A stretch of 48,666 nt of DNA from Bacillota bacterium (GTDB lineage Bacteria; Bacillota; Sulfobacillia; JAJZYS01; JAILZS01). The notes below the pieces were generated by a model. The model ran no database searches. It had not been told where the DNA came from and saw only the letters and a list, made by a program, of their open reading frames with translations. The position numbers and the translations under genes are program-made. The stretch is taken from NCBI GenBank assembly GCA_023512375.1, contig JAILZS010000017.1, forward strand, positions 1 through 48,666, written 5' to 3'. Positions 2,324-29,838 of this stretch are shown piece by piece. The number at the start of each line of letters is the position of its first letter. The first letter of the stretch is position 1.

Positions 2324-3025
2324 TCATAAGGCGGTTCCCGAAAGCAGGCCACTGGGACCGGCTAGCCAGTACCACAACAAGTAGGCGCCGGAAACCAGCA
2401 CGAGAACACTCCCAAATCGCTCCACGTACGGTGTCACCCGCCGAATCCACAAGTGCGCCGCGTAGCGTGCCGTGACCGTGAGCACTGTGAGAACATTCAC
2501 CACGATCGCAAGTCCCAGTCCGTACGCGAGGAGCACGAGCCCGGCCTGAGCTACCGACCGTGAAGCGAGGGACTGGACGACCAGGGATAGAAAGAGCGGC
2601 AGGCTGCAGCTCAGGCACGCGACGCCATAGGCCACGCCGTAGCCAAAGAGACCGCCGCGACCCTCGCCGGGCGAATACCCGAACAGGCGGATGCCACGCA
2701 GTTCCACGCCTCCAAGGTGCCCGCGAACCAGACCGACCGTGCCCCAGACCAGGAGGAACGCCCCGACAGCCACCGCAAACCACGGAATGAGGCGGATCAC
2801 CGATGAGGCCGCCAGCATGATGGCTACCGCGGTGGTAAGAAATAAGGAAAGAAAACCCGCGCTCACAGTCAGTCCCGCCCCGACACCGCGGAGCGCACGC
2901 ACCTCCCCCTTGTCGGTACCAACCAGGAGGCCAACGTACGATGGAAGCATGCCAACGCCGCAGGGGCTCAGACCTGCTGCGGCCCCTGTGCTAAGTGCCA
3001 ATGCATAGAGTCCGAATCCCGTCAT
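2324..3025 (-). CDS. ccdA: CcdA/DsbD-type thiol-disulfide electron-transfer membrane protein
   Basis: Multi-span membrane protein, 233 residues, that would carry reducing equivalents from cytoplasmic thioredoxin across the membrane for cytochrome c maturation. The six-helix pattern and the two cysteine sites fit CcdA/DsbD: SPCGVGMLP in the first helix (about residues 17-25) and ACLSCSLP midway. The start at 3025 (MTGFGLYALA) is chosen because its ATG overlaps the TGA of the upstream gene (ATGA) and matches the family length; the open frame continues upstream but is not expected to be translated. It is the last gene of a three-gene block (3944 to 2324) with the same overlap at both junctions. 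Its likely partners are the thioredoxin-like proteins at 8221-10048 on the other side of the IS110 remnant. Confidence 0.85.
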   Translation of the reverse strand: MTGFGLYALALSTGAAAGLSPCGVGMLPSYVGLLVGTDKGEVRALRGVGAGLTVSAGFLSLFLTTAVAIMLAASSVIRLIPWFAVAVGAFLLVWGTVGLVRGHLGGVELRGIRLFGYSPGEGRGGLFGYGVAYGVACLSCSLPLFLSLVVQSLASRSVAQAGLVLLAYGLGLAIVVNVLTVLTVTARYAAHLWIRRVTPYVERFGSVLVLVSGAYLLWYWLAGPSGLLSGTAL

Positions 3026-3708
3026 GCGCCCCCAGCCTCCGTGTCGCTCAGGTGGCTGCCCGTTTGTCGCCCCGCCCACACGACGGCGAAGGCGAGCGCG
3101 GCAAGACCTAATAGGAGAAGGCCCGCCCGTGCCCAGCCCCGATAGACTTGCGCCGGGTCGCCGAGGGCCATCGGTATGAAGATGGATGTTCCGGCAGGCA
3201 CGGCTGCGGCCTGAAACTCCCGGAGATTCTGGCCCGCGAGGTGGACCACCCCGCGGTAGGTGAATGTCCCCAACGCGGATCCGGACGGGTAGGCACCACC
3301 GCCCACAAGCAAGGTCGCCGATGCGATGGGAGCGGCGGTGGTCTCTGACCATACGAGGGGCGATGTTCGGGGAAGCAAGATGTCGAACTGCACCGACTTG
3401 GGCCTGCCGGATAGCCACACGCCCGAGGCTGTCGCCTGGAAAGGCGCCGTGGTGCCGATCACCCGCAACAAGGTGAACCCGCCGGGCAAGGGGACGAATT
3501 CCTTAGGCCCGACCGGGAGTCGATCCCAGTCGACGTTGACAAGGACACGTACGCCGGCCGCCTGCGGCACGAACACCCAGGTCTCCGACCCGACAACACC
3601 TGAGGAACCGCTTGCGGCAGCGGCCACGCCTGGCGCCCGCCCAACCGCCACAAGCGCGGCCGCGCACAGGGACAGGAGCAAGCCGCGCATCCGTCCCGTG
3701 CGCCTCAT
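3022..3708 (-). CDS. Exported, membrane-anchored protein of unknown function
   Basis: 228 residues with an N-terminal signal peptide (about residues 8-32), a beta-rich extracellular part, and a C-terminal membrane helix (about 195-214) with a short charged tail, so it should sit outside the cell anchored by its C-terminus. I do not recognise the family. The gene at 7559-8224 has the same architecture and size, and both lie next to cytochrome c maturation genes, so they may be related or have parallel roles. Translation is probably coupled on both sides: its ATG overlaps the stop of the small membrane protein upstream, and its stop overlaps the ccdA start. No cysteine pair or haem motif was seen. 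A structural role in a haem-delivery complex is only a guess. Confidence 0.7.
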   Translation of the reverse strand: MRRTGRMRGLLLSLCAAALVAVGRAPGVAAAASGSSGVVGSETWVFVPQAAGVRVLVNVDWDRLPVGPKEFVPLPGGFTLLRVIGTTAPFQATASGVWLSGRPKSVQFDILLPRTSPLVWSETTAAPIASATLLVGGGAYPSGSALGTFTYRGVVHLAGQNLREFQAAAVPAGTSIFIPMALGDPAQVYRGWARAGLLLLGLAALAFAVVWAGRQTGSHLSDTEAGGA

Positions 3709-4181: not shown

Positions 4182-5429
4182 ATGCGCGAGACTGCGCCCA
4201 CCGCCCCCGCGGAAACCCCAACGCCTTTGGTCCGCAATTCCATGCCGGAAGGGGTGAATCTCATCCCCAACGACACCCTGTTTGTCGGCATCGATATCGG
4301 CCTCGAGAACAACGCCCACTTCCTGGCCCCGAACGGCGACTCTCTCGGCCGCCTTACCTTCCCCAACGATATCGACGGCGTCGGACAGCTCTCGTCGACC
4401 GCTTCGTGAAGACCTGCTCGGATCACAACCTGTCGGTTCTTCGCATCGGCATGGAAGCCACCGGAACTCGAGCCCTACGATCTCCAAGTCGCCGTACTCA
4501 ACCCCAAGAGCGTGGAGGGCTTCAAGGCCGTCTACACCGACATCCCCAAGACCGATCTCAAGGGCGCCTGGGTGATCGCCGACTGCTTGCGCTTCGGCCG
4601 GGTCCACTTCCATCCCCCGACCGACCCGCGCTACGCATCCCTGCAGCGGCTCACGCGCTTGCGCTTCCAATTGGTTCACCACATGACATGCGAGAAGAAC
4701 CGCACATTGTCCCTGCGGTTTCTCCGCTTCGGCACCTTGGCCCATGACGCCCCGTTCTCCAACGTGTTCGCCAAGGCATCGACAACCATCTTCACCGAGA
4801 TGACCGTCGAAGAGATCGCCCAGACCCCCCTTGGGGATGTGGTCATCCGCATCTCCCAGCACTCCGGTAGCCGCCTGGGAAACGGCAACCCCGAAGCTCT
4901 CGCCCGTGAGGTCCAGGCCACGGCTCGCAGGTCCTTTCGCGTCACCCCGAAGATGGATAGCGCCGTCGGCGTTGCCCTTTCCATGTCCGTCGCCACGATC
5001 CGCCTTCTCGAGGACCAATTGAGGCGGCTCGACAAGGCGATGGCGCAGGAACTCAAGGGCATCGCCGCCGTAGACGGCGCCGGCCTCGTCGCCGAGATCG
5101 GCGACATTCCCCGCTTTCCCAACCACGACGCCCTTGCCAAGTACGGGGGTTTCACTTGGCGCCAGCATCAGTCGGGCGTCTTCGCCGCCGAGGACCTTCC
5201 CCTGCCGCGCTCGGGCAATGTCTACCTGCGCTACTACCTGATCGAGGCCACGAACTCCGTCCGGGTGCGGGACCAAGAGTTCGCCGCCTTCTCCGAGCGC
5301 AAGCATCGGGAGGCACGCCATCATCACCACAAGCGGTCCTTGGTCCTGACCGCAAGGAATCTGGTGCGAATGGTCTACGCCTTGCTGAGCGAAGGCCAGC
5401 TCTACGTTCGGATGAGAAGGATCTCCTAG
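4182..5429 (+). pseudogene. IS110-family transposase, broken by frameshifts
   Basis: DEDD-type recombinase of an IS110 element, in three frames. The first piece (4182-4390) has the N-terminal Asp motif FVGIDIGLENN. A CT duplication at about 4389-4393 shifts the frame: CAGCTCTCGTC should read CAG CTC GTC. The second piece (to about 4470) gives LVDRFVKTCSDHNLSVLRIG then MEATG. A further shift, with loss of several residues, follows before YDLQVAVLNPKSVEGF, and the third piece (about 4476-5429) carries the rest. The C-terminal transposase domain is well kept, with AEIGDIPRFPNHDALAKYGG, the serine-containing QSG, and GNVYLRYYLIEATNS. The element lies between ccmF and the ccdA trio and is unlikely to make active enzyme. 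Confidence 0.9.
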
Positions 5430-5513: not shown

Positions 5514-7556
5514 TCAACGGGCCCATCCTTGGGAGTTGCCATCAAACCCTCGGTCTTTGACGAGGTACGCGCCGTGCACCGTGTTGCCCAGCCCACGTGC
5601 CTCCCGTTCCGCTTCGGTCTTCTCTCTCGGGTTGGTAACGAGCAAAAGGACCATGCATCCGATCATTAGAAGCGCGCCGCCCCAGAACCATGTCACCAAC
5701 GGGTTCACAAAGAATTCGAGCACGGCTGTGCCGCTCTTCACCCCAGCCAAGACGACATACAGATCGCCGGAGATGCCGTGCATGATGGCCACCCGGGCGA
5801 GCGGCGCCGGGTCACCGGGATAGATGATGAACTCGGGGGTGAGGACACCTCCGGTGGCGCGGTTTCGCAAGATGGCGGTTTCTACGACATTGACGCCCAG
5901 CATGCGCTGGGAAAGCCCCTGAAAAGTCATCGGTACCCCGCCGATCGTGACGTTTTGCCCATTGGTCACGGAGAGCGTCGTCCTCTGCTGAAACAACCAC
6001 GATCCAGCGATGCCGATGAACATCAGGGCAAACGCGATGTGCACAACGTATCCCAGGTATCGGTGTGGATGACGGGTAAACAGATCGTTAGCAGCCGCTG
6101 TCAGGCTGTGCCCGGCAACCAGCCGCGCACGGATGGCCCTGCCGAATTCCCCAACATGTGCGGTGATGGCGAAGGCGGCGGCACCGAACCCCGCCACAGC
6201 TCGCCAGTCAAGGTGATGGACCAACGGAGGCTCCAGGAGACCCGTAGCGAGTGCGGCCGCACACCCCACACTAACCGGCCACACGAGAAGTCGCACGGCG
6301 TGCCGCCAAGAGGTCCTCCGCCAACCGACCGCTGTCGCCGCACCCATGGCGACCAGGAGAAGTACAGCAAACGGGCCCACCGCGTTCGTGAAGAAGGACT
6401 CGGTGACCGTCATCTCCTGGCCCAGGAAGTCACGGGAGATGATCGGGTACAGGGTTCCCCAGAGGACGGAGAACGCGGCGCCCATCAAGAGTACGTTATT
6501 GAGCAGAAAGGCAAATTCCTTGGATAAATAGCTCTCCCATCGGCTCGCGTCCTGAAGCAGATCGCGGTTCCAGACAATCGTGATCACCGAGAATGCCAGA
6601 GTTCCTGCGAAGAACAGGCTGAGCGGCAGGCTTACGGGCGACTGGCTGAATGTGTGAATCGACGGCAGAAAGCCGCTTCGGGTAAGGAACGTGCCAAACA
6701 CCGCAAGTCCAAACGCCGCCGTCAAGAGCAACATGTTCCATACGCGGAAGGTGCCCCGGCGCTCCTGCACCATGCCCGAGTGGATGAGGGCAGTGGCCAC
6801 GATCCAGGGCATGAAGGCGGCATTCTCGACGGGATCCCACGCCCAGTAACCGCCCCACCCGAGTTCCGTGTAGGCCCAGTAGCCGCCGAGGACGAGAGCG
6901 GCGGTAAGGAACGTCCATGCTACGAGCAGCCAGCGTCGGCTGAGCCGGACCCAGAGATCCCCGCCCCTTCGGGCCCAGAGGGCTCCCATACCCCATGCGA
7001 ACGGGACAGTCAGCCCGATGAAACCCATATACATGGCCGGCGGGTGCACGGCCATCCAGACGTTCTGCAGAAGCGGATCGAGACCGTTCCCGTCGTAAGG
7101 CGGCGAGGTCGTGGTGGTGAACGGGGGGACCACTGCCGTCACCATGGCGAGATAGAAGACGCTCACGCCGCTCAGGATGAGCCCGGCATAAGGAACGATG
7201 GGCGCTTCGTCATGCGCACTGCGCCCGACCACGTACGCGGCATAGAGTGACAAGACCCACACCCAAAACAGAAGGGATCCAGCGCTGCCTGACCAGAGGG
7301 CGGTGAGCTTGAGGAATAGAGAAAGGTTGCGGCTCGTGTTCTCGGCTACGTCGACGACCGAAAAGTTGCTCGTCACGAGTTCGTACTCTAGGACGCCCAC
7401 AGCGCCGGTTACCAGCATCGCCACCGCGACCACGGCACCGCGTGCGCTGTGCCACGCCCGTACAGACCTTGCGCGCAAGCCATAGATCGTGAGGGCCATG
7501 GAAAGGAGTGACATGCTGAGGGCGCCCCATAGGAGGAGGTCGCCAACACGTGCCAT
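5514..7556 (-). CDS. ccmF: Cytochrome c-type biogenesis protein CcmF (haem lyase)
   Basis: Membrane enzyme that attaches haem to the CXXCH cysteines of c-type cytochromes outside the membrane. The 680-residue length and about 15 predicted helices fit CcmF. The tryptophan-rich haem-handling motif WGGYWAWDPVEN is at residues 234-245 and the conserved His in VHPPAMYMGF is at residue 171. The start at 7556 (MARVGDLLLW) was chosen over an in-frame start 78 bases upstream, because AAGGAG lies eight bases before it and it begins two bases after the upstream stop. The genes before it encode thiol-redox proteins, and the genes after it (beyond the IS110 remnant) include ccdA. No CcmE, CcmG-H or CcmABC gene is visible in the window. 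Confidence 0.95.
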   Translation of the reverse strand: MARVGDLLLWGALSMSLLSMALTIYGLRARSVRAWHSARGAVVAVAMLVTGAVGVLEYELVTSNFSVVDVAENTSRNLSLFLKLTALWSGSAGSLLFWVWVLSLYAAYVVGRSAHDEAPIVPYAGLILSGVSVFYLAMVTAVVPPFTTTTSPPYDGNGLDPLLQNVWMAVHPPAMYMGFIGLTVPFAWGMGALWARRGGDLWVRLSRRWLLVAWTFLTAALVLGGYWAYTELGWGGYWAWDPVENAAFMPWIVATALIHSGMVQERRGTFRVWNMLLLTAAFGLAVFGTFLTRSGFLPSIHTFSQSPVSLPLSLFFAGTLAFSVITIVWNRDLLQDASRWESYLSKEFAFLLNNVLLMGAAFSVLWGTLYPIISRDFLGQEMTVTESFFTNAVGPFAVLLLVAMGAATAVGWRRTSWRHAVRLLVWPVSVGCAAALATGLLEPPLVHHLDWRAVAGFGAAAFAITAHVGEFGRAIRARLVAGHSLTAAANDLFTRHPHRYLGYVVHIAFALMFIGIAGSWLFQQRTTLSVTNGQNVTIGGVPMTFQGLSQRMLGVNVVETAILRNRATGGVLTPEFIIYPGDPAPLARVAIMHGISGDLYVVLAGVKSGTAVLEFFVNPLVTWFWGGALLMIGCMVLLLVTNPREKTEAEREARGLGNTVHGAYLVKDRGFDGNSQGWAR

Positions 7557-7558
7557 CC

Positions 7559-8224
7559 TCAGTTCTCCTTCCCGTTCGCAACGCCGTCGTGAGGCAACGG
7601 GGCCTCGGCGTCGGCCGCCGGTCGGCGCCACCACCAGACCAGGAAGACCCCGATCACCACAGCAGTCAGCATCTCGGCGTACCCGTAGTAGAAGACCGGT
7701 GGAGCAGGCGGGGTGAACTCGAAATTGAGCCGCATCGGTCCCCCTGAGAGATGCCGAGCAATCGAGACAATGGCCGCATCGCCACTTCCGCCCGTACCCT
7801 GCGGGTAAAACGCCTGGTTGAGTTCGATCGGAAAGGATACGCCCGGTCCCGTCTCAACCACGAATTCCTGGGTGGGGCCGGGAAGCCACCAGGCGACGGA
7901 GAGCCCTTGGCTCGGCAGCGCCGTGCCGTAGCGAAGCGTGACCGAGTCTGCCCCGGACCGAATCGCGACCGAGTCCATGCCCGCAGGCGAAAAGCCAGCG
8001 CCGTGAACGCCTCTCGCACCAGGCAGGAGCGGGATGCGGACCGGTGAGGCAACGCGGGCCGAGAACGTCACGGTGTTGACGACCACAAGACCACCGTCGG
8101 CAAGTCGGACAGACAGCACCTCTCGACGTATGGTCGGGACGTGAGGTGCCGCCGCGCCCGACGGCGAGACCCACAAGGCGAGGGTCAGGAGCAGCGTTAC
8201 GGTGGCCAGCGCCTTAGCCCTCAC
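7559..8224 (-). CDS. Exported, membrane-anchored protein of unknown function (cytochrome maturation cluster)
   Basis: 221 residues with a signal peptide (about residues 5-25), a beta-rich extracellular domain, and a C-terminal membrane helix (about 183-202) followed by a charged tail. I do not recognise the family. Architecture and length match the exported protein at 3022-3708, so the cluster encodes two similar-looking anchored proteins. Its ATG overlaps the stop of the thioredoxin-like gene upstream (ATGA at 8221-8224), and its stop lies two bases from the ccmF start, so the three are almost certainly co-translated. The position directly before ccmF suggests a role in haem or apocytochrome handling. 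That is context-based inference, as no metal or haem motif is visible. Confidence 0.75.
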   Translation of the reverse strand: MRAKALATVTLLLTLALWVSPSGAAAPHVPTIRREVLSVRLADGGLVVVNTVTFSARVASPVRIPLLPGARGVHGAGFSPAGMDSVAIRSGADSVTLRYGTALPSQGLSVAWWLPGPTQEFVVETGPGVSFPIELNQAFYPQGTGGSGDAAIVSIARHLSGGPMRLNFEFTPPAPPVFYYGYAEMLTAVVIGVFLVWWWRRPAADAEAPLPHDGVANGKEN

Positions 8225-8790
8225 GGATTCACCGGGACGTAGGGCAGGATCCCCGACGCGAGCTGGCTGTAACTCAAGTCGCCCGATGCCGTGCCACGGA
8301 TGACACCGTCCCGGTCCAAAAACATTACCGTGGGAATGGTCTGCACCTGGTACGTATCGGAAACCTGCCCGGTTCGGTCGAGCAGGATTGGAAATGTGAT
8401 GCCGTAGGTCTGGGCAAAGAGGTCCACCGCTCCTATATCAGGTTCCGAGATGGTCATATCGATTCCGACCACCGCCACCTGCCCGCGCGCCTGTCGGTAC
8501 AGCGCCTCAAGGGACGGCGCCTCGTCCCGACAGGCCTGACACCAGGAGGTGAAGAAATCAAGGAGCACCGGGTGGCCACGGAAGGTTTGCAACGAAACCC
8601 TACCGCCCGGGAGAGCGGAGAGCGAAAAGCCAGGTGCACGCGCACCGACCTGCACCCCGACGCCCTGCGCCCCCGAACCGCGCGCCGTATAGAGAAGCAG
8701 CGCCAAAACCGTCACAGCTGCGATAGGTAGTGCCACGATTGCCCAAGGCGGCGTTCTCCTACCAGTATTGTGCTTACCCAACGGTGTCAC
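8221..8790 (-). CDS. resA: TlpA/ResA-like membrane-anchored thioredoxin
   Basis: Extracytoplasmic thiol-disulfide oxidoreductase, 189 residues. A positively charged N-terminus is followed by a single membrane anchor (about residues 15-36). A thioredoxin fold of the TlpA/ResA type follows, with FFTSWCQACRDE giving active-site cysteines C84 and C87 and a cis-proline segment VQTIPTVMFLDRDG. In cytochrome c maturation such proteins reduce the CXXCH cysteines of the apocytochrome before CcmF adds haem, and CcdA re-reduces them. It overlaps the next gene by four bases and lies 88 bases after the SCO1-TlpA fusion, in the same direction. The symbol resA is by role; TlpA or CcmG would be equally fair. 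Confidence 0.85.
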   Translation of the reverse strand: MTPLGKHNTGRRTPPWAIVALPIAAVTVLALLLYTARGSGAQGVGVQVGARAPGFSLSALPGGRVSLQTFRGHPVLLDFFTSWCQACRDEAPSLEALYRQARGQVAVVGIDMTISEPDIGAVDLFAQTYGITFPILLDRTGQVSDTYQVQTIPTVMFLDRDGVIRGTASGDLSYSQLASGILPYVPVNP

Positions 8791-8878: not shown

Positions 8879-10048
8879 CTAGGACGAGCCAGAGGTGTCT
8901 CCTTTAGACCTGTGCGACAACGCGTTCGCGACCAGCGACTTAACCGATAAGACACCGGCATGCTCCCAGAGCATCCTGCCCTGAGGGGAAACAAGGGCTA
9001 TGGTCGGAAGCTCCGTCACCCCGAACCGGTCGAATACGGCGCCGCTGTTGTCGAGGGCAACCGGGTAGTCGATCTTGTGGGATACGAGATACGAACGGAC
9101 GTATGCCGTGGATGGCTCCGTCAGCCTGAGGTCGACGGCGACGAGCGGCGGCAAGCTTGGATCGGCCTGCTGATGCCGGACGTAGGCCTGGAGTGTCGGG
9201 ATCTCCTCCTGGCACGCGTGACACCAGGTGGCGAAAAAGTCGACCAGGGTCGCCTTGCCCCCGGGGACCGCCACCCGCGTGGAACTCCCGTTCAGGAGAC
9301 CGCCCAGATGAAACGCCACATTCTGGAGCGGCGTATTGCTCGGATGCGCGTTGACAAGGTTGGTGTAGGGATCGGGTAGGCGAGCCGGGGTCTGTAGCGA
9401 CCGTGAGACGTACTCCGCGAGGACGTACGCTTGGTCGGGGATGTTGCGCCGGACCCCACTGTTGAGGAAGACCCGAACCTCTCGCCCACGCGGGTCGATG
9501 ACATAGATAGCCGGGGTGTGGGTCACCTGCCCGCGAATCGCTCGCGCCTCGATGGCGTACGCGTGCCAGATCGGCCGAAGCTGCGCCACCGTTCCGGTGA
9601 GAAAGAGCCACTTGTGCAACATGCCATGTTGGATCGACCACTGACGAACGTCGGTGACAGATGTGGCGATCGGGTTCGAGTTGACGGCTACCAGTTGAAC
9701 CCGGCCGGCGGATGGTCCCAGAAGGCGCATCGCATCTAGCAGGGTCTGGACGGTGAGCGGGCACACCGTTGTGCAGCGGCTATCGATGAAGGACAGAACC
9801 ACCGTCTTGCCACGCAGGCTGCTCAGGGTGATCTGGCGGCCGAATTGATCCCATAGCCGGAAGTTCGGTGCGGCGCGGTTGCCGAGCGGAGCCCCCGGGT
9901 CGACTCCGTACCGGGCCCCGGGCACCTTGATCGGACCCTGGCCAAGAATGTCGGTGCTGTGCCATAGACCGATGCCGGCTGTAACGGTCAGCGTGAGGGC
10001 AACGGCACCAAGGGCCCATCGGCGATCCCACCTTGGCCCTGGATTCAC
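8879..10048 (-). CDS. SCO1/SenC-TlpA two-domain fusion protein
   Basis: 389 residues with a GTG start preceded by GGGGGAG five bases away. An N-terminal membrane anchor (about 12-30) leads to a SCO1/SenC domain with its copper-binding CTTVC (C92 and C96) and the distant His in THTPAIYVID (H177). After a linker comes a second, TlpA/ResA-type thioredoxin domain with WCHAC (C276 and C279) and the VTELPTIALVSPQG cis-proline region. SCO proteins deliver copper to the CuA centre of cytochrome oxidase, and TlpA-type partners reduce the copper-site cysteines, so the fusion would combine metallochaperone and reductant in one chain. It is the first gene of the minus-strand cluster leading to ccmF. Domain identities are secure; the joint function is inferred. 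Confidence 0.88.
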   Translation of the reverse strand: MNPGPRWDRRWALGAVALTLTVTAGIGLWHSTDILGQGPIKVPGARYGVDPGAPLGNRAAPNFRLWDQFGRQITLSSLRGKTVVLSFIDSRCTTVCPLTVQTLLDAMRLLGPSAGRVQLVAVNSNPIATSVTDVRQWSIQHGMLHKWLFLTGTVAQLRPIWHAYAIEARAIRGQVTHTPAIYVIDPRGREVRVFLNSGVRRNIPDQAYVLAEYVSRSLQTPARLPDPYTNLVNAHPSNTPLQNVAFHLGGLLNGSSTRVAVPGGKATLVDFFATWCHACQEEIPTLQAYVRHQQADPSLPPLVAVDLRLTEPSTAYVRSYLVSHKIDYPVALDNSGAVFDRFGVTELPTIALVSPQGRMLWEHAGVLSVKSLVANALSHRSKGDTSGSS

Positions 10049-10127
10049 GAAGCTCCCCCCTGTCCTTGAAAGTCGGGGCGTAGGTCATGGCGCGGAGCGT
10101 TGGGATAGCCGCCCGACTCCGCTGACG

Positions 10128-10930
10128 CGGTAGCTGCTCAAGGACATTGCCGATCTTGGGGTTTCAGCATCGCTGCTCGTCGGCCTGGAGCCGGACGTCG
10201 CCAAGTGCGCCCCGGATCCCCAGGAGGCCGTTCCCGATCACCAGCCGCGGCATCATCATCCGGCGGTCCTGCAGGTCCCGTGGCAGCTCCGACCAGCTCC
10301 CACGGACCCGCTAGCCGGGGACCACGGCCCCCACACCTCCTTGCGGCCGTTCACTAGGCCTGCCACCGCCACCAACTGCGCCGCCTGCTTCCGCTCCAGT
10401 CCCGCCTTCACGTACAGCCCGTCCACCCATAGGTAGGCGAACTCCAGATCGTCCAGTCGCTTGCTCTGCCAGCTCTCCCATTCCGCCCGCCGCCGCTCTT
10501 TCAGCTCGCCACCTTGCTTGCCGACGAGGGCGCCTGTTTGCCGAGCAGGCCGGCAGGGCCAGGCCGAAGTCCCCCTCTGCCAGCCCGTGCAGGTACAGCT
10601 CCGGCAAGAGGTTTGAGACCTCTCGGGTGCGCCGCACGAACAGGGGCAAGAATCTCGGACCGCTCCTGCAGGCCCCGCACCCGGGGGACGGCGCTCGGTG
10701 CCCGTCCCCGGGGGTGTCGTCAGCTTGCGAGGCTTACCGTAGCCGTTTGATTAGCTGGCCAAGGATGCGCCGAGGACCGGCGCCGGTGGCGGACCCGGCC
10801 CAGCCATGCGCTCACCTCCTCTCTCCTGCTGGATCATCCGGGGGACGTGGTTCCTAAGCCACCCCTCCTCCCCAGTCGGGGCTTGAGGAGAGGTTCGCCG
10901 ACGTGGACCGCTCCTTCATGGCGACGGCTC
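10128..10930 (-). pseudogene. IS256/Mutator-family transposase remnant
   Basis: Read on the minus strand in shifting frames, this stretch preserves pieces of an IS256-type transposase in the correct order. They are a GYGKPRKLTT piece and a VRGLQERSE piece (about 10650-10760), FVRRTREVSNLLPELYLHG then LAEGDF (about 10560-10640), an FAYLWVDGLYVKAGLERKQA block holding a catalytic Asp (about 10390-10450), a VIGNGLLGIRGAL-like block (about 10195-10240) and EQRCWNPKIGNVLEQL (about 10130-10180). Several frameshifts and stops separate them, so nothing functional is made. The limits are approximate and no terminal inverted repeats were identified. It lies between the cytochrome cluster and the copper operon. 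Confidence 0.8.
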
Positions 10931-11132
10931 TCCTCCCTTGGCTTCCAAGCCGTGTGGTATCTCTCCAGGAGGCGGTGACACCGTCATCAGCATTTGCGCA
11001 CCGTTTTTCAGGCTACCTCCTGAGCGCCACGAGCCAGGGCCAGGTCGCAAGTGCCGTCGACATAGGCCCTGCGCCTCCTCGGCTCCCGGCCAAGACGCAG
11101 AGGGTGCTGCATAGTTCCTGTGGCACCGCCCC

Positions 11133-11282
11133 TCAGCTGTTGCGCTTCAGGTACCGTTCCGGATCGTTCAGGAAGCGATCCTTGCAGCCCTGCGCGCAGA
11201 AGTAGTACGTCTGTCCGTCGTGCTCGGCCTTGATGGCCTTGGTCTCGTCCACGTTCATCTGGCACACTGGATCCTTCGCCAT
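11133..11282 (-). CDS. Small YHS-domain metal-binding protein
   Basis: 49-residue protein made of a single YHS domain. It starts MAKDPVCQMNV (DPVC motif), continues with a DGQTYYFCAQGCKDRF segment (FC-X3-C motif) and ends with DPERYL. YHS domains bind copper or other soft metals through these cysteines and are found in copper-transporting ATPases and mercury or copper resistance loci. The ATG at 11282 has AGGAGG nine bases upstream. It is the third gene of the csoR-copA operon (63 bases after copA) and closely resembles the two YHS repeats at the CopA C-terminus, so it may have arisen from them. A copper-chaperone role is inferred. It is short enough to be missed by automatic gene finding. 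Confidence 0.85.
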   Translation of the reverse strand: MAKDPVCQMNVDETKAIKAEHDGQTYYFCAQGCKDRFLNDPERYLKRNS

Positions 11283-11344
11283 GGGGGTTCCTCCTTAGAG
11301 GTGTGTTCGTGGGCGCCGGACGACTGCCACGTCCGGCGCGGATC

Positions 11345-14194
11345 CTACGTCATCGTCCGGCCCGCGGCGTTCGTGAGATACTGCTCGGGATGCGCCTCGA
11401 AGTCCTCGCGGCAGGCGGTGTTGCAGAAGAAATAGGTGTGACCCTGGTAGTCCAGTCGGTCGGCTTCCTGGCCGATCGTGACGGTCATTCCGCATACCGG
11501 ATCGACCGCGGTCACATACCGTGCCGGGTCCGCATCGAACTCCTCCTTGCAGGCCAGGTTGCAGAACAGGTAGCGAACGCCGTCGTACGTCGATGAACCC
11601 GCTTCGCTGCCTGCCGTTACCCGCATGCCGCAGACGGGATCCACGGACTCGTAGGACTTGGGTTCCCCAGCGTCCTCTCCCTCCGGCCGTTGCCCACCGC
11701 CACCGTCCTGCGCGACCTCGGACCTCGCCTCCTCCTCCGCCCACCGCTCCTCGGTCCGCGTCAGGCCGCGCATCGGGTTGTAGCGGTTGAGCAGCGCCGA
11801 GTTGGTCGTCACGAACACGGACGAGAAGGCCATGGCCGCCCCTGAAAGGACAGGCATGAGGAGGTTGAGCCCCGCGACAGGGATGAGCACCACGTTGTAG
11901 ATGAACGCCCAGAACAGGTTCTGGCGGATCTTGCCGAGGGTCGCCTTGCTGAGCCTGAGGGCGGCCGGCAGCCCCCGCAGATCGCCGCTCATCAGCGTGA
12001 TGCCCGATGCCGCGATGGCCACGTCGGTACCCGTCCCGATCGCCACGCCGACGTCCGCCGTGGCGAGTGCCGGGGCATCGTTGATGCCGTCGCCGGTCAT
12101 GGCCACGACATGGCCTTCCTGGCGCAGGCGGGCGACGACCGTCGCCTTGTCCGCCGGCAGCACCTCGGCGATGACGCGCTCGCGCGAGATTCCCACCTGG
12201 TCGGCCACCGCCTCGGCCACGCGGCGGCTGTCGCCGGTCAGGAGATAGACGGCGTACCCAGCAGCCGTCAGGGCGTCGATCGCTTCTTGCGCGGTGTCCT
12301 TGACGGTGTCTGCGACGGCGATCACGCCCGCCGCCCGGCCGTCGACCGCGACGTATAGGGGCGTCTTGCCTGCCTCCTCCAGGGCGCGGCCCGCCGCCTC
12401 CAGCGCGGCGCCGTCCACGCCGGCCTGGGCGAGAAAGCTCAGGCGCCCGACCAGCACCTCCCCGTTGGGCGTACGCCCGCGCACGCCGCGACCGGGAACC
12501 GCCTCGAAGGCCTCGACCCTCGGCAGCTCCAGCCGGCGCTCCCGCGCTGCGGCCACGACCGCGCGCCCAAGTGGGTGCTCCGAAAACGTCTCCACCGCCG
12601 CGGCCAGGGCGAGGAGCTCGTCCTCGGTCGCTCCAGCCACCGCAAGCACATCCGTGACGGCGGGCCGCCCCCGCGTCACCGTGCCGGTCTTGTCCAGCAC
12701 CACGGTGTCCACGCGCGCCGCCCGCTCCAGATGCTCACCGCCGCGGATCAGGATGCCGCGCCGTGCGCCCACGCCCGTACCCGCAACGAGGGCCGTCGGC
12801 GTCGCCAGCCCAAGGGCGCACGGGCACGCCACCACCAGCACCGCCACTGCAGGCACCAGGGCCGTTCCCACCTGGCCGGTGATGGCAAGCCAGGCGACGA
12901 ACACCACGGCCGCCACGGCGATGACGATGGGTACGAAGATGCTCGAGATGCGGTCGACGAGGTGTTCGACCGGCGCCTTCTCGGCCTGGGCCGCCTCGAC
13001 GATCGACACGATCTGCGCCAGGACGGTATCCCGGCCCACCTTCGTGGCCCGCATGCGCAGCGTGCCGGTCTGGTTGAGGGTCGCTCCCACGACCCCGTCG
13101 CCGGGCCGCTTGGTCACCGGCAACGGCTCGCCGGTGAGCATCGACTCGTCCACGCTGCTCTGGCCGGCGAGGATCACGCCGTCGGTGGGGATGCTCTCGC
13201 CCGGGCGCACTACCAGCTCCATGCCAACCTCGACGTCCTCGATCGGCACGTCGCGCTCGCCCGCCGCAGTGACGGCGTGCGCCAAGCGCGGGCTGAGCCC
13301 CATGAGCTGGCGGATGGCCGAGGACGTGGCTCCCTTGGCGCGCGCCTCCACGAACTTTCCGAGCGATACCAGGGTGAGGACGATGGCGCTCGAGTCGAAG
13401 TAGGTGGCAGCGCCGGTTCCCAACAGGACGGCGGCCGCGCTGTACACGTACGCGGCGCTCGTGCCCAGGGCCACCAGCACCGACATGTTGGCGTTGCGGT
13501 TCTTGAGGTTGTGGTAGGAGTCGACGTAGTACGACCAGCCGACGTACCCCTGGACGATCGTGGCGAGAGCCAGCTGCAGCCACCTGTCGGATAGCACCTG
13601 CACCAGCGTCCCGCGTGCGCCGACGAGGGTCACCACGAGCCACGCGGCGAGGGGGAGGGAGAAGATCGCGCCTAGCCAGAACCGCCGTGCCCACTTCGCG
13701 ATCTCGGCCTCTCGCGCTCGCTGCCCGGCGTCGTGCTGGGGAGCGAGTTCGCGCGTGGCGATGCCCCAGCTTCGAAGCGTGCGCCGCAGGTCGGCCGCCG
13801 ACACGCTGTCCGGCAGGTAGGTTACCGCCAGGGCGTTGGCCGTCCCGTCGTAGCGCACCCTGACCACACCCGCGATGGCGCCGACGCGACCCAGGAGGGA
13901 ACCTGCATCGGCCGGAGGTTCCTCCAGCTCGAGGCGGGTGGCATCGGTCACGGCGCGGTAACCGATGTCCTGGATCTTGCCGAGGATTCCTTCCAGGTCC
14001 GCCCGCCCCGGGTCGAGCCGCACCACGGCCTTCTCGGTCCCGAAGTTGACGCTGGCCGCTTCGACGCCCTCCATGCCCCTGACGCCACGTTCGATGCGCA
14101 GGGCGCACGAGGCGCAGGTCATGCCGGCGATGCCGATCTGGACTTCCAGCGCCCCAGGCTGGGTCTTGCTGTCCGCTTCCTTGCGCGTTGCCAT
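11345..14194 (-). CDS. copA: Copper-exporting P1B-type ATPase with two C-terminal YHS domains
   Basis: ATP-driven copper(I) efflux pump, 949 residues. In order it has an HMA domain with GMTCASC (C27 and C30), a second HMA-like fold lacking its cysteines (about 100-145), paired membrane helices, TGE at 354-356, the CPC metal site at 457-459, the phosphorylation motif DKTGT (D501), [14 protein letters not shown], and the last helices. Two YHS domains then follow in about the last 100 residues, each with DPVCGM and FCN-X2-C, separated by an acidic linker. YHS domains more often sit at the N-terminus of such ATPases. The ATG at 14194 is chosen because the HMA domain follows at the normal distance; its ribosome binding site is only a G run. 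It lies 49 bases after csoR, and copper induction through CsoR is expected. Confidence 0.95.
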
Positions 14195-14243
14195 GCAAAC
14201 GGTCCCCCCCGCCGGAATCCCTGCGCGCCGGCCCGCCGGGCAT

Positions 14244-14609
14244 TCAGGCCGGCACGTGCGGTGCAGGCGCGTGACACGTGCACAGCGGTCCGCCGGTGGC
14301 GGCCGGTTTGTCGAGGCTGGCCGGCCCGCCGTGCCCGTTGACGAGGCTCTTCTCATAGCGCAGGGCACCGAGGAGCTCGTCGATGATCTCCTTGCCCATG
14401 CCGCGCCGGATCGCGTCGGAGACGCAGGTCGAAAGGTGGTTGCGTAGGAGGATGAGCTGAATGCCTTCGAGGGCGCCCTGGACGGCCGCCACCTGCTTCA
14501 TGAGATCGACGCAGTACACGTCCTGTTCGACCATGCGCTCCACGCTCTCCAGATGGCCGACGGCGCTCCTCAGACGGAGAAGCGTTTCGCGTTTCAGGTC
14601 GGGGAGCAT
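14244..14609 (-). CDS. csoR: CsoR-family copper-sensing repressor
   Basis: Cytoplasmic, all-helical repressor of 121 residues that should release DNA when it binds Cu(I). The CsoR/DUF156 pattern is clear: [19 protein letters not shown] followed by YC (first Cys ligand), a second helix with AAVQGAL, and the [10 protein letters not shown] segment supplying the His and second Cys ligands. The tail is longer than usual and ends in a Cys/His-containing segment ([11 protein letters not shown]) that could bind more metal. The ATG at 14609 has AAGGAGG eight bases upstream. It is first in the csoR-copA-YHS operon, with a strong promoter (14653-14681) and a GC-rich operator candidate (14624-14646) just upstream, so autoregulation is likely. 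Confidence 0.93.
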
Positions 14610-14623
14610 CTGTCTGCCTCCTT

Positions 14624-14646
14624 CCACCCCAGGGGGGGTGGGGTCC
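14624..14646 (-). promoter_or_regulatory. Putative CsoR operator
   Basis: The sequence CCACCCCAGGGGGGGTGGGG at 14624-14643, continuing TCC, is a near-palindrome of C and G runs flanked by A/T-containing steps. This is the form described for CsoR-type operators. It lies between the -10 element and the csoR start codon, over the likely transcription start, so a bound repressor would block the promoter of csoR-copA. Identified by pattern only. Confidence 0.6.
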
Positions 14647-14652
14647 GGAGAG

Positions 14653-14681
14653 ACGTTAACCCACCACCGGCATCTTGTCAA
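14653..14681 (-). promoter_or_regulatory. Promoter of the csoR-copA operon
   Basis: On the minus strand TTGACA (14681-14676) is followed after exactly 17 bases by TAACGT (14658-14653). The -35 matches the housekeeping consensus perfectly and the -10 matches at most positions. Transcription would start near 14646, inside the putative CsoR operator, giving a leader of about 37 bases before the csoR ATG. Confidence 0.75.
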
Positions 14682-15032
14682 ACGCGGAGGCGGGCCCACC
14701 AGGCGCCCGGTCACCAACCCCGACTTCCCGGGGGGGCGGGGGAAAGCGCGTGCAAGGTGCTGGTGGAGGCGCGCATGAAGCAGGCCCGCAGGCCCGGGCA
14801 CCGTCTGGGCAGCCAGGCGGTCGGAACGCTCAGGGCGCGGCACCGTTCGGGCGAGTGGGCCAACGCTTGGGTCACCGCGCCTCGCCGGTGCCGTCCGCCC
14901 GCACGTTGCCCGGACCGACCCCGGGCTGCGTGACCCCCCGATGGTGGGGCGCCCCCCCTGGCGAACCGGCGTTGACGTGGGGTGGCTCGACGGTCAACGT
15001 GGTCTGTGTGGTCTCGGGAAGAAGGGGATCTT
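14682..15032. other. Intergenic region, no gene seen
   Basis: About 350 bases between the copper operon promoter and the antitoxin gene. Open frames exist on both strands, but their translations are Arg/Pro/Gly-rich and resemble no protein family. The start chosen for the antitoxin (GTG 15033) is preceded by GAAGGGG. Nothing else was recognised. Confidence 0.5.
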
Positions 15033-26529: not shown

Positions 26530-29500
26530 ATGCCGGAGGCTCGCCGCCCCCGCCCGATCCCGGGCGCCCTGCTGGCGGTCGGGCTGGCGCTTTCCGTGGC
26601 GGCGGCCCCGCCCGCCGCTCGCTCGGCGCCGCCGCCCCTGCGCCTTCCCGCCCTCGCCCCGCCGCGCGCCCCCGCCCGGCCGGGGCACTCGCCCCCGCCC
26701 GGGCGCACCCGCGGCCAGACCGCGCCGGCGCCGGCCCCCTCCCCCGCCTGGCAGCCCATCGGCCCCTCCCCCCTCCTGGGCTTCGGGCCCGGGCCGGTGA
26801 GCGGGCGGGTCACCGCCATCGTCCCTGCCTCCGACGGCGTCCTGTACGTCGGCAGCGCCGGAGGGGGGGTGTGGGCCTCGAAGGACGGCGGCGCCACCTG
26901 GACGCCGCTCACCGACGGCCAGCCCGATCTGGCCATCGGCGCCCTCGCCGTCGACCCCGCCGACCCCCAGGTGGTGTACGCCGGCACGGGCGAGGACGAC
27001 CAGGCGGTGGACAGCTTCTACGGCGCCGGCCTGCTCAAGAGCGCCGACGGCGGCCAGACGTGGACGCTCCTCGGGCAGGACGTGTTCGGCGGCGGCCACT
27101 TCTCCGCCCTCGCCGTCGACCCCGCCGACCCGGCCGTCGTGTACGCGGCCGGGGACTTCGGCCTTTGGCGCTCCCAGGACGGCGGCGTCACATGGAGCCG
27201 GCTTGCGGTGGCGACATCCGGGGGAGGGGCGCCCAACGTCACCTCCCTGCTCCTCGACCCGGCCGACCCCCAGACCCTGTACGCGGGCGTGGAAGGCGTG
27301 GGGGTGGAGCGGTCGCAGGACGGCGGCGCCACCTGGCAGGTCCTCTCCGGCGGCCTGCCGACGGGGGCGGGGGTGGGGCGCGTCGCCCTCGCCCTGGCGC
27401 CGCCCTCCCCCTCGGGCCCGGGCCCCCTGTACGCCGCTTTCTCCTCCGACGCCCAGGCCACCTCGGGCGACCTCTTGGGCCTGTACGAGAGCGTCGACGG
27501 CGGCGACGCTTGGAGCCAGCTCACCGTCCCGGACTACATGGGCTACGCCTACGCCTACGGCAGCGGCGCCACCGGCCAGGGCTACTACGACAACGCCCTG
27601 GCCGTCGACCCCCTCGACCCCCGGGTGGTGTACGCCGGCGGCATCGCGCTGATGACCAGCGCCGACGGCGGCCTCTCCTGGACGGACGTCGGGCAGGCGG
27701 ACGGCATCCACGTCGACGTCCACGCCCTCGCCTTCGACGCCCAGGGCGACCTGTACGTCGGCACGGACGGCGGGGTGTGGGAGATCCCCGCCCAGGGGGC
27801 GGTGCGGGACCTCAACGCGGGCCTCGACATCACGCAGTTCTACCCCGGCCTGGCCGCCGTCGGCCCCGGGCCCGGACTCCTCGCCGGATCGCAGGACAAC
27901 GGCACGGACGTGTACACCGGGTCGCCCGCCTGGTCGGCGGCGCCCAACGCCTGCGGCGACGGGTCGGGCAACGCGGTCGACCCCCTGGACGCCGGCGTAT
28001 GGTTTGCCGCCTGCGCCGGCGGCGGCCTGCAGGTGACGACCGACGCGGGTCAGAGCTGGCGCACGATCACGCCCCCCACCGCCCACGCGGCGCCGTGGCT
28101 CTCCCCCCTCGCCGTCGCCCCCGCCCCCCAGACGCCCGCCGACCCCGCGCTGTACGTGGGGGAGACGAACGTATGGCGGACGACCGACGACGGCGCCACC
28201 TGGACGCGCCTCACCGACTTCCCCGACGCCGCTTCCGGCGCCGTCGTCTCCGCCCTGGCCGTCGCCCCCTCCGACCCCTCCGTCGTCTACGCCGGCCTGG
28301 GCGACGGCGCCCTGTACATGAGCGAGGACGCGGGCGCCACCTGGTCGCAGGTGCCCCTCCCGGACGGGGCGGGCGGCAGGGGAGGGGGGCGGTGGATCAC
28401 CCACGTCGCCGTCTCCCCCCAGGACCCCTACCGGGTGGGCGTCACGTTCAGCGGCCACGCCTTCCCCCAGTCCTCGCCCTCGGGACCGCACGTCCTGGTG
28501 ACCCAGGACATCTCGGCCCCCAATCCCGCCTGGCAGGACGTGACGGGCGACCTGCCGCCCTCCCCGACGAACGCCCTCCTCATGCTGGGGGCGGGGGGCG
28601 ACACGTTGGTGGTGGCCGCCGACGCCGGCGTCTTCGTCTCCACCCGGCCGGGGGTGTGGCGCCCGTTGGGGAGCGGTCTTCCCGCCGCCCAGGTGGTGGA
28701 CGTGGGGGTGGTGGGCGCGGACCTCGTGGCCCTGACGCACGGCCGGGGGGCGTGGGAGCTCCCCCTGGCCAGCCTCACGCAGGTGGAGGTGGCGCTGTCG
28801 GCCGATACGGTCACGGCCGGCACCCCGGTGGCGATCGCGCTGTCGGCGCTGGACGCGGCGGGAAACCCCCTGGCCGGCCTCACCCTGCAGCTCGCGGTCA
28901 CCGGCACCCTCCGCCCCGGCGGCCTTTCCGCCCAGACGGTCACCACCGACGCCCAGGGCCAGGCCCAGGCCACCTATACGGACACGCGAGCGGGCGACGC
29001 CGGCACGGTGGAGGCCGTCGGTCCCGCCGGCGCCGTGGTGGCGGCAAGCTCCCAGCTCACGGTGACGCCGGCGGCGCCCGCCGCCGTCCGCCCCGTGGGC
29101 GCGGCGCCGACGGCCCCGGCGGGCCGGGCGGTCACCCTGGCCTTCCTCGTCACCGACGCCTACGGCAACCCCGTCCCCGGCGTGCCGGTGACCTTCTCCG
29201 TCACCGGCAGCCTGAAGGCGGCCGACCTGCGGGCGGCGTCCGCCGCCACCGACGCGTCCGGCCTGGCGCGGGTCACGTACGCCGACCCCACGCCGGGCGA
29301 CCGGGGGAGCGTGGTGGCCTCTCTCCCCGGGGGAGAGAGCGCCCAGGCACCCCTGGCCGTCGCCGCCCTGCCCCCGGCGGTGCTCGCCCTCACGATGGAC
29401 GGGCGCCCGCTGCGCCTCGTCCTGTCGCCCTCGCCGCCCCTGGGTCGGGCGGTGACGGTTCGCCTTCGGGCCGAGGTGGGCGGCTATCTCCTCGCCCTGC

Positions 29501-29838
29501 CCCCGCTCCGCGTCCTGGTCGCATCGCCGGGCAAGGCGCGGGTGCTCGACCCGGCGGCGGGCCGTGCACGCCGGGCGGCGGCCGGGTCTTCAGCCGCCTA
29601 CCTCCTCCTGCCGCTGGTGGTCGCCCCCCCGGCCGGGCCGCCCCAGGCCATCGTCCTCGACCTGGAGCGCGGGCGGCGGCCGGCGGCGGTGTGGGCGTTG
29701 CCGACGGCCGCCTACGGGCGGCGCGCAGTGCGGGTGGCCGGACCCTACCTGCCGCGCCGGGAGCGGGGGACGGTGCTCGTCGCCGTCCTGGCCTGGCCGG
29801 GAGGGCGCCTCGTCACCACCGTGCCCCGCCCCCGGTGA
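26530..29838 (+). CDS. Exported BNR/sortilin-like propeller protein with Ig-like domains
   Basis: 1,102 residues. A signal peptide (about 10-32) and a Pro-rich linker precede a long series of BNR/Asp-box repeats, S-x-D-G-G-x-T-W, for example SKDGGATWTP, SADGGQTWT, SQDGGVTWS and SEDAGATWS, alternating with VDPADPxVVYAG strands. This fold is shared with sortilin (VPS10), photosystem assembly factors and xyloglucanases. From about residue 755 there are two bacterial Ig-like (Big_1/invasin) repeats, each with the YGNPVPGVPVTFSVTG or AAGNPLAGL pattern, then a C-terminal module. AAGGAGG lies seven bases before the ATG. Binding of polysaccharide or protein at the cell surface is likely; catalytic residues could not be assigned. 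Confidence 0.85.
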   Translation: MPEARRPRPIPGALLAVGLALSVAAAPPAARSAPPPLRLPALAPPRAPARPGHSPPPGRTRGQTAPAPAPSPAWQPIGPSPLLGFGPGPVSGRVTAIVPASDGVLYVGSAGGGVWASKDGGATWTPLTDGQPDLAIGALAVDPADPQVVYAGTGEDDQAVDSFYGAGLLKSADGGQTWTLLGQDVFGGGHFSALAVDPADPAVVYAAGDFGLWRSQDGGVTWSRLAVATSGGGAPNVTSLLLDPADPQTLYAGVEGVGVERSQDGGATWQVLSGGLPTGAGVGRVALALAPPSPSGPGPLYAAFSSDAQATSGDLLGLYESVDGGDAWSQLTVPDYMGYAYAYGSGATGQGYYDNALAVDPLDPRVVYAGGIALMTSADGGLSWTDVGQADGIHVDVHALAFDAQGDLYVGTDGGVWEIPAQGAVRDLNAGLDITQFYPGLAAVGPGPGLLAGSQDNGTDVYTGSPAWSAAPNACGDGSGNAVDPLDAGVWFAACAGGGLQVTTDAGQSWRTITPPTAHAAPWLSPLAVAPAPQTPADPALYVGETNVWRTTDDGATWTRLTDFPDAASGAVVSALAVAPSDPSVVYAGLGDGALYMSEDAGATWSQVPLPDGAGGRGGGRWITHVAVSPQDPYRVGVTFSGHAFPQSSPSGPHVLVTQDISAPNPAWQDVTGDLPPSPTNALLMLGAGGDTLVVAADAGVFVSTRPGVWRPLGSGLPAAQVVDVGVVGADLVALTHGRGAWELPLASLTQVEVALSADTVTAGTPVAIALSALDAAGNPLAGLTLQLAVTGTLRPGGLSAQTVTTDAQGQAQATYTDTRAGDAGTVEAVGPAGAVVAASSQLTVTPAAPAAVRPVGAAPTAPAGRAVTLAFLVTDAYGNPVPGVPVTFSVTGSLKAADLRAASAATDASGLARVTYADPTPGDRGSVVASLPGGESAQAPLAVAALPPAVLALTMDGRPLRLVLSPSPPLGRAVTVRLRAEVGGYLLALPPLRVLVASPGKARVLDPAAGRARRAAAGSSAAYLLLPLVVAPPAGPPQAIVLDLERGRRPAAVWALPTAAYGRRAVRVAGPYLPRRERGTVLVAVLAWPGGRLVTTVPRPR

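Follow-up and report, generated by a model that had tools for sequence, protein, structure and literature searches.

A conserved SCO–TlpA/ResA fusion protein of Sulfobacillia occurs in three active-site states and may combine copper delivery with thiol reduction

Introduction

The copper chaperones SCO1, SenC, ScoI and YpmQ and the thiol reductases ResA, StoA and TlpA are the described proteins closest to the one reported here. With the chaperones it has in common an SCO1-SenC domain, a CxxxC motif with a distal histidine and a probable membrane anchor, but it carries an additional C-terminal TlpA/ResA-like domain, and one set of its relatives (class III, below) has no copper cysteines. With the reductases it has in common a thioredoxin-like domain with a CxxC motif and, in many relatives, an adjoining CcdA gene, but the domain is joined behind SCO and a second set of relatives (class II) lacks the CxxC. 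The pair that works most like the fusion is found in B. japonicum where, according to two sources (PMC9145763, PMC6696091), TlpA reduces both ScoI and oxidase subunit II; there two proteins are involved, here a single chain. PMC9145763 also states that the electrons of ResA and StoA in B. subtilis come from CcdA, which 'might also reduce Sco', and that in bacteria without TlpA other oxidoreductases 'presumably' reduce the Sco/CuA cysteines, or the demand varies.

Two gene arrangements also resemble it. A plasmid of Haloarcula sp. GH36 carries SCO, TlpA and CcdA as three adjacent genes between nos and ba3 oxidase genes; this trio is unfused, archaeal and known from gene order alone. A protein of Frondihabitans annotated as 'redoxin domain-containing protein' (WP_066284294.1) has the same domain order as the fusion, with both active sites intact and CtaG and CcdA genes upstream, but is only 31% identical to it and comes from another phylum. 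Within the literature searched, a scope that leaves out most subscription journals and includes passages of PMC9145763, PMC7558416, PMC6696091 and PMC8945050, neither a SCO–TlpA fusion nor the three states described below is mentioned. The parts are known, and what is added here is their joined form, the reciprocal decay of the two active sites and a correlation with CcdA.

Results and Discussion

The fusion protein

The stretch of 48,666 nt analysed here (the window) carries the fusion gene on the minus strand as one open frame, while the plus strand of 8879–10048 is interrupted by stops; the sequence-only reading of this DNA had named no strand. Features of the gene and its surroundings are listed in Table 1. 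Both halves exceed the Pfam gathering cut-offs, with 55.7 bits against 22.8 for SCO1-SenC, 51.1 against 26.6 for Redoxin, and 43.7 against 27 for Thioredoxin_8 (residues 264–358), and two domains are thus present at scores far above chance. This confirms that an SCO and a TlpA-like domain lie in one protein, as that reading had proposed, and the residues it had named (C92, C96, H177, C276 and C279) are present exactly as it stated. The protein contains no cysteines other than these four, and a pattern scan found no lipobox in its N-terminus.

Table 1. Features of the fusion gene and neighbouring genes, in window coordinates.
Feature	Position	Strand	Basis or remark
CsoR-type metal-sensitive repressor; true start probably inside the ORF	14244..14843	-	PF02583, E 5.6e-22, residues 84–162
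CopA-type copper P-type ATPase, HMA and two YHS stretches	11345..14368	-	TIGR01511, 556.1 bits against cut-off 397; PF04945
SCO–TlpA/ResA fusion, 389 aa, GTG start	8879..10048	-	single open frame
N-terminal hydrophobic segment, residues 11–30, probable membrane anchor	9959..10018	-	read by eye from the sequence
SCO1-SenC domain, residues 62–189	9482..9865	-	Pfam PF02630, E 6.4e-15
SCO CxxxC, C92–C96	9761..9775	-	sequence
SCO distal histidine, H177	9518..9520	-	invariant in class I (17/17) and class II (28/28)
Weakly conserved linker between the domains, about residues 219–267	9248..9394	-	length in the family 38–60 residues
TlpA/ResA-like thioredoxin domain, residues 256–368	8945..9283	-	Pfam Redoxin
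WCHAC active site, W275–C279	9212..9226	-	sequence
Stand-alone ResA-like thiol reductase (WCQAC), downstream and separated from the fusion by 88 bases	8221..8790	-	Pfam; groups apart from fused domains in tree
221-aa protein without family match; overlaps the ends of both neighbours	7559..8224	-	ORF, Pfam
CcmF-type haem lyase (system I cytochrome c maturation)	5514..7634	-	PF16327, PF01578
IS110-family transposase, separating CcmF from the CcdA pair	4512..5429	+	PF02371, PF01548
228-aa protein without family match; overlaps the CcdA start	3022..3708	-	ORF, Pfam
CcdA-like membrane electron carrier; start picked by eye in ORF 2324–3418	2324..3028	-	profile of relatives

The best solved relative of the SCO domain is Blr1131 (4wbj, 4wbr; E 3e-9), which we take to be ScoI of B. 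japonicum. The TlpA/ResA-like domain is nearer to ResA (2f9s, E 2.6e-15) than to TlpA (1jfu, E 7e-4). As the NCBIfam scores are below the curated cut-offs, at 70.2 against 170 for ResA (NF002854) and 35.1 against 230 for TlpA (NF047696), the fusion is not filed here as ResA or TlpA proper; for all nine NCBIfam families listed, its score falls short of the cut-off. An AlphaFold2 model built from three alignment rows (mean pLDDT 45.6, pTM 0.42) was too poor for active-site geometry, and two scans of viral contigs for further alignment rows gave no relatives.

Distribution

Genomes of Sulfobacillia, the taxonomic class of the window genome, were searched with an E limit of 1e-15, and matches spanning from before query residue 110 to beyond residue 340 were counted as full length. 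There are 56 such matches in 41 of 154 genomes, with a partial match at a contig edge in G126 excluded. As G086 and G089 carry an identical fusion, G086 was left out and the counts below refer to 55 distinct proteins from 40 genomes. The shared protein (L092 and L093), a 438-aa fusion of class II, is found in two genera, suggesting either cross-binning or recent transfer. A contig of another assembly, that of Bacillota MAG FK2.bin21 (L036), encodes a protein with this architecture and 80% identity to the window fusion.

Outside Sulfobacillia the architecture was found once. In a phylum sample of 398 genomes, at least 16 of them Sulfobacillia, the full-length fusions among the matches listed are confined to G000, G002, G003, G004 and G020, all of that class, and none lies outside it; at most 4 candidates were scored per genome, the list being ordered by E-value, and a very remote fusion could escape. 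No full-length fusion was seen in 240 genomes of another phylum (that of G536), where at most 8 candidates were scored. A single match covering 80% or more was obtained from 72,556 plasmid records. It comes from a finished plasmid of Frondihabitans sp. PAMC 28766 (Actinomycetota) and has all five active-site residues; the genes there are arranged as CtaG–CcdA–fusion–rhodanese.

The window genome is a draft of 104 contigs, and the sequence-only reading had named a faulty join of two genes as the event that would explain the fusion away. Set against the FK2.bin21 homologue, the 56 matches across the class and the Frondihabitans plasmid, an assembly error is extremely improbable and was rejected. 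The search for the two-domain architecture that the same reading had proposed instead finds a fusion that is conserved in Sulfobacillia.

Three active-site states

When the 55 distinct fusions were aligned and scored at the active-site positions, three classes were evident. In class I, with 17 members including the window protein, both sites are intact. Class II is the largest (28 of 55) and keeps C92, C96 and H177, while C276 and C279 are replaced by L, A, V, M or F. In the 10 members of class III the situation is reversed, with C276 and C279 kept and C92 and C96 replaced by G, S or D; H177 is kept in 6 of these. No member has lost both sites. Sixteen of the 17 class I proteins have four cysteines in the aligned region (one has 6), and all 28 of class II and all 10 of class III have exactly two.

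In a tree built without the active-site columns, a single branch (100/100) separates class II from all other members, and three changes are required for class III. With Frondihabitans as distant outgroup, class II becomes a clade nested among the others and the changes for class III rise to four, though exact placements are unsure because of long branches (L045, L105, L120, L103 and Frondihabitans). The thioredoxin domain of class II has a mean pairwise identity of 41%, compared with 58% for the SCO domain, the corresponding values for class I being 52% and 56%. Despite this faster evolution, W275, D306, E311, D333, G336 and G357 are kept in 28 of 28, and the class II thioredoxin domain is therefore not in free decay.

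The classes are combined in different ways in the 40 genomes. A single class II fusion is present in 12, classes I and II together in 8, a single class III in 7 and a single class I in 6; the remaining sets are two class II (3 genomes), II with III (2), two class I (1) and I with III (the window genome). Six of the 7 genomes whose sole fusion is of class III keep an SCO with CxxxC elsewhere. The stand-alone SCO of G120 (L124) bears CxxxC, while in G119 (96% complete) the single SCO match is the class III fusion itself.

A lipobox-like pattern was seen in 11 of 28 class II proteins (e.g. L040, L043, L093, L107 and L111), in 0 of 10 class III, and in 2 of 17 class I, where both matches are within the hydrophobic stretch. 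On this pattern, some class II fusions may be lipoproteins, like Sco of B. subtilis. One class II fusion (L036:6185-7789, the same as L080:8536-10140) has a third, C-terminal domain of the sulfocyanin (SoxE) family (E 1.6e-10). This chain of SCO, dead thioredoxin and cupredoxin is encoded in tandem with a class I fusion, and IS21-like transposase genes were recognised by eye upstream.

Genes adjacent to the fusion

In the window, the order by transcription is CsoR, CopA, fusion, ResA-like gene, 221-aa protein and CcmF, then, beyond an IS110 transposase gene on the opposite strand, the 228-aa protein and the CcdA-like gene, which is 5.9 kb from the fusion. Pfam and NCBIfam scans gave no DsbD/CcdA match for this last gene, but a CcdA profile (A1) matches 2351–3004 (E 1.8e-56) and both conserved cysteines are visible. 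The segment between CopA and the fusion (10049–11344) contains frame-broken pieces without family match that resemble an IS256-type transposase. G084 has a class II fusion at the corresponding upstream position; that the window keeps a trace of such a copy was considered and rejected, as this segment gave no match. The G084 locus was compared by protein BLAST, tblastx having given noise; in tblastn, the G084 class II protein matches the fusion and the ResA-like gene and otherwise the window only at E 1.5 or worse. Elsewhere in the window, on the plus strand, are a gene for a reverse transcriptase domain protein (637-1854; RVT_1, E 1.5e-37) and a 1102-aa frame (26530-29838) with BNR/sortilin-type repeats and two Big_1 stretches.

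CcdA is the usual electron source of TlpA/ResA-type proteins. Across the family, a CcdA gene is found within 1 kb of the fusion in 11 of 17 class I and 7 of 10 class III cases and in none of the 28 of class II, that is, beside 18 of 27 fusions that bear CxxC and 0 of 28 without it; 9 of the 27 have no CcdA gene at this distance. Within 5 kb the counts are 19 of 27 and 2 of 28 (Fisher p 1.1e-6, a value that ignores relatedness and overstates the evidence, since class II is one clade and thus a single correlated change on the tree). Pfam supports the CcdA label weakly, with DsbD models matching 4 and 1 of 13 members; the label is based on a pair of invariant cysteines and on a profile match, at probability 99.8, to a protein whose annotation is CcdA family.

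Other neighbours are more narrowly distributed. CopA is found within 5 kb of 7 of 17 class I fusions and CsoR within 5 kb of 6 of 17 (one on the other strand), compared with 0 of 38 in the other classes for each, and a DUF4396 gene is near 5 of 17 class I fusions and none of any other class. Seven of the 55 fusions, 2 of class I and 5 of class II, have CtaG within 5 kb, on the other strand in one of the class II cases. A VKOR domain is encoded near two class I fusions and one of class II. At L084 (239-1519) and L087, the VKOR-domain protein (PF07884) is encoded directly 3′ of CtaG paired with a class I fusion, a pair without CcdA in the surrounding 5 kb.

Oxidases and CuA sites

COX1 was detected in 40 of 41 genomes with a fusion, the exception being 61% complete, versus 60 of the 113 others. 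Linkage to oxidase genes, which the sequence-only reading had proposed to check, holds for some members of the family but not for the window copy, which sits between CsoR–CopA and CcmF and not beside oxidase genes. The class III paralogue of the same genome (on C98) is followed by COX2 (Pfam) and a COX1-like gene, recognised by its likeness to COX1 of C78, and CtaG is near 7 of 55 fusions, as given above.

COX2 searches gave 39 matches in 14 genomes. Thirty were inspected, and 20 fit the CuA pattern, 3 fit it with Gln in place of Glu, 5 lack the CuA cysteines and 2 could not be assigned. In the window genome the CuA motif is present in 3 of 3 COX2 genes found. G084, probably the FK2.bin21 genome, carries fusions of both class I and class II; a single COX2 was found there, and its CuA cysteines are missing. 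COX2-like proteins with Ser or Asn in place of these cysteines (L186 of G084, and L191, L193, L196 and L201) occur in fusion-bearing genomes. Another copper protein may therefore be served, and a role for CuA alone is less likely, given that the only COX2 detected in G084 has no CuA cysteines and that the class II protein of this genome has a sulfocyanin-type domain.

Proposed function

On balance, the fusion is probably a membrane-anchored, outward-facing two-domain copper protein that acts as a tethered chaperone and reductant for CuA-type oxidases, perhaps also for other copper proteins. The architecture, the intact residues, the conservation, the reciprocal loss of sites and the linkage to CcdA and copper genes are observed, while topology, electron flow, copper binding, target and regulation are inferred. 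Electrons from the cytoplasm would reach the C276–C279 pair through CcdA, and the TlpA/ResA-like domain would in turn keep copper-site thiols reduced, either C92–C96 of an SCO domain (in its own or an adjacent molecule) or those of its target, the CuA site of oxidase subunit II. The SCO domain, with C92, C96 and H177, would bind copper exported by CopA and hand it on. The linker, weakly conserved and 38–60 residues long, may be a flexible tether that holds both activities at one target. Transfer within the chain could occur in class I but would not be obligatory, since the family has repeatedly ended up with the two activities on separate polypeptides. The partnership of SCO and TlpA that the sequence-only reading had brought forward, with CcdA as the putative electron source, is supported by the conserved fusion, by CcdA within 1 kb of 18 of 27 versus 0 of 28 and by the adjacent haloarchaeal SCO, TlpA and CcdA genes. 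For bacteria without TlpA, a chain of SCO and reductant with CcdA nearby points to a route by which Sco and CuA may be reduced, and the three natural states are ready-made separation-of-function proteins for asking whether Sco acts as chaperone, reductase or both.

The alternative readings are not mutually exclusive, and the confidences placed in them overlap for this reason. One is a dedicated relay, in which each cycle includes reduction of C92–C96 by C276–C279 of the same chain, and the domains were fused for this purpose. It is compatible with the tethered chaperone and reductant as far as class I is concerned, and the two intact sites in 17 of 55 members and the reduction of ScoI by a separate TlpA in B. 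japonicum (PMC6696091, PMC9145763) speak for it. Such a relay is nonetheless unlikely: the linker varies in length and is weakly conserved, the AlphaFold2 model is unusable for geometry, and 38 of 55 members remain joined without one cysteine pair, so that a single-chain relay is not the general reason for the joined domains. Intramolecular electron transfer, which the sequence-only reading took the fusion to suggest, fails as a general explanation on the same count, but could take place in the 17 proteins with both pairs, the window protein among them.

The other two alternatives draw on gene context. With CopA near 7 of 17 and CsoR near 6 of 17 class I fusions, the window copy included, and near 0 of 38 others, the protein could be a CsoR-controlled copper-stress protein that takes copper from CopA and buffers or detoxifies it outside the membrane with the help of the reductant, oxidase assembly being secondary. 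This overlaps with the tethered chaperone and reductant and seems rather unlikely, considering that CcdA, CtaG or COX genes adjoin other members and that COX1 accompanies the fusion in 40 of 41 genomes. The CcmF, ResA-like and CcdA genes of the window cluster would instead suit a role in cytochrome c maturation, with the TlpA/ResA-like domain and CcdA reducing apocytochrome c and the SCO domain as a passenger. In the relative with the 80% identical fusion, CcmF (71% identical) is also on the same strand about 6 kb away, and a 35-residue CcmF-like piece adjoins the fusion. Yet a separate ResA-like protein with an intact CxxC is encoded next door, a CcmF match lies within 5 kb in only 2 of 17 class I cases (the window, and L080 with the 35-residue piece only), and C92, C96 and H177 are kept in 17 of 17, which makes this role quite improbable.

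Domain histories

Trees of the separate domains were made from the SCO domains of 25 of the 55 fusions and the TlpA domains of 14 fusions of classes I and III, to which 14 SCO-only proteins and 12 TlpA-only proteins from the loci were added along with the two plasmid records. The fused TlpA domains are apart from the ResA-like stand-alone proteins (98/96). A stand-alone TlpA on G000:C78, with COX1, COX2 and COX3 within 6 kb, falls among the fused domains (81/83) and is probably a fusion stripped of its SCO half. In the SCO tree, a clade of stand-alone and extended SCOs falls among the fused domains (95/87, with an open fork). A common origin with the Frondihabitans fusion is not claimed, because that protein is on a long branch with the Haloarcula row in the TlpA tree and beside L045 in the SCO tree.

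One tentative reading, at somewhat less than even confidence, is that the fusion is an ancestral bifunctional copper chaperone and reductant that was repeatedly subdivided by reciprocal death of its active sites. The dead thioredoxin of class II might then serve as a docking module for SCO, and the dead SCO of class III as one for the reductase, with full re-splitting, as in the G000:C78 TlpA and the stand-alone SCOs, as the end points. If so, natural variants would separate the chaperone from the reductase function, which are hard to distinguish in Sco proteins.

Several SCO domains with intact CxxxC are joined to other long segments. In L124, L127, L052 and L130 the domain is followed by about 340–370 residues without a Pfam family, and in L122 it is preceded by about 430 such residues.
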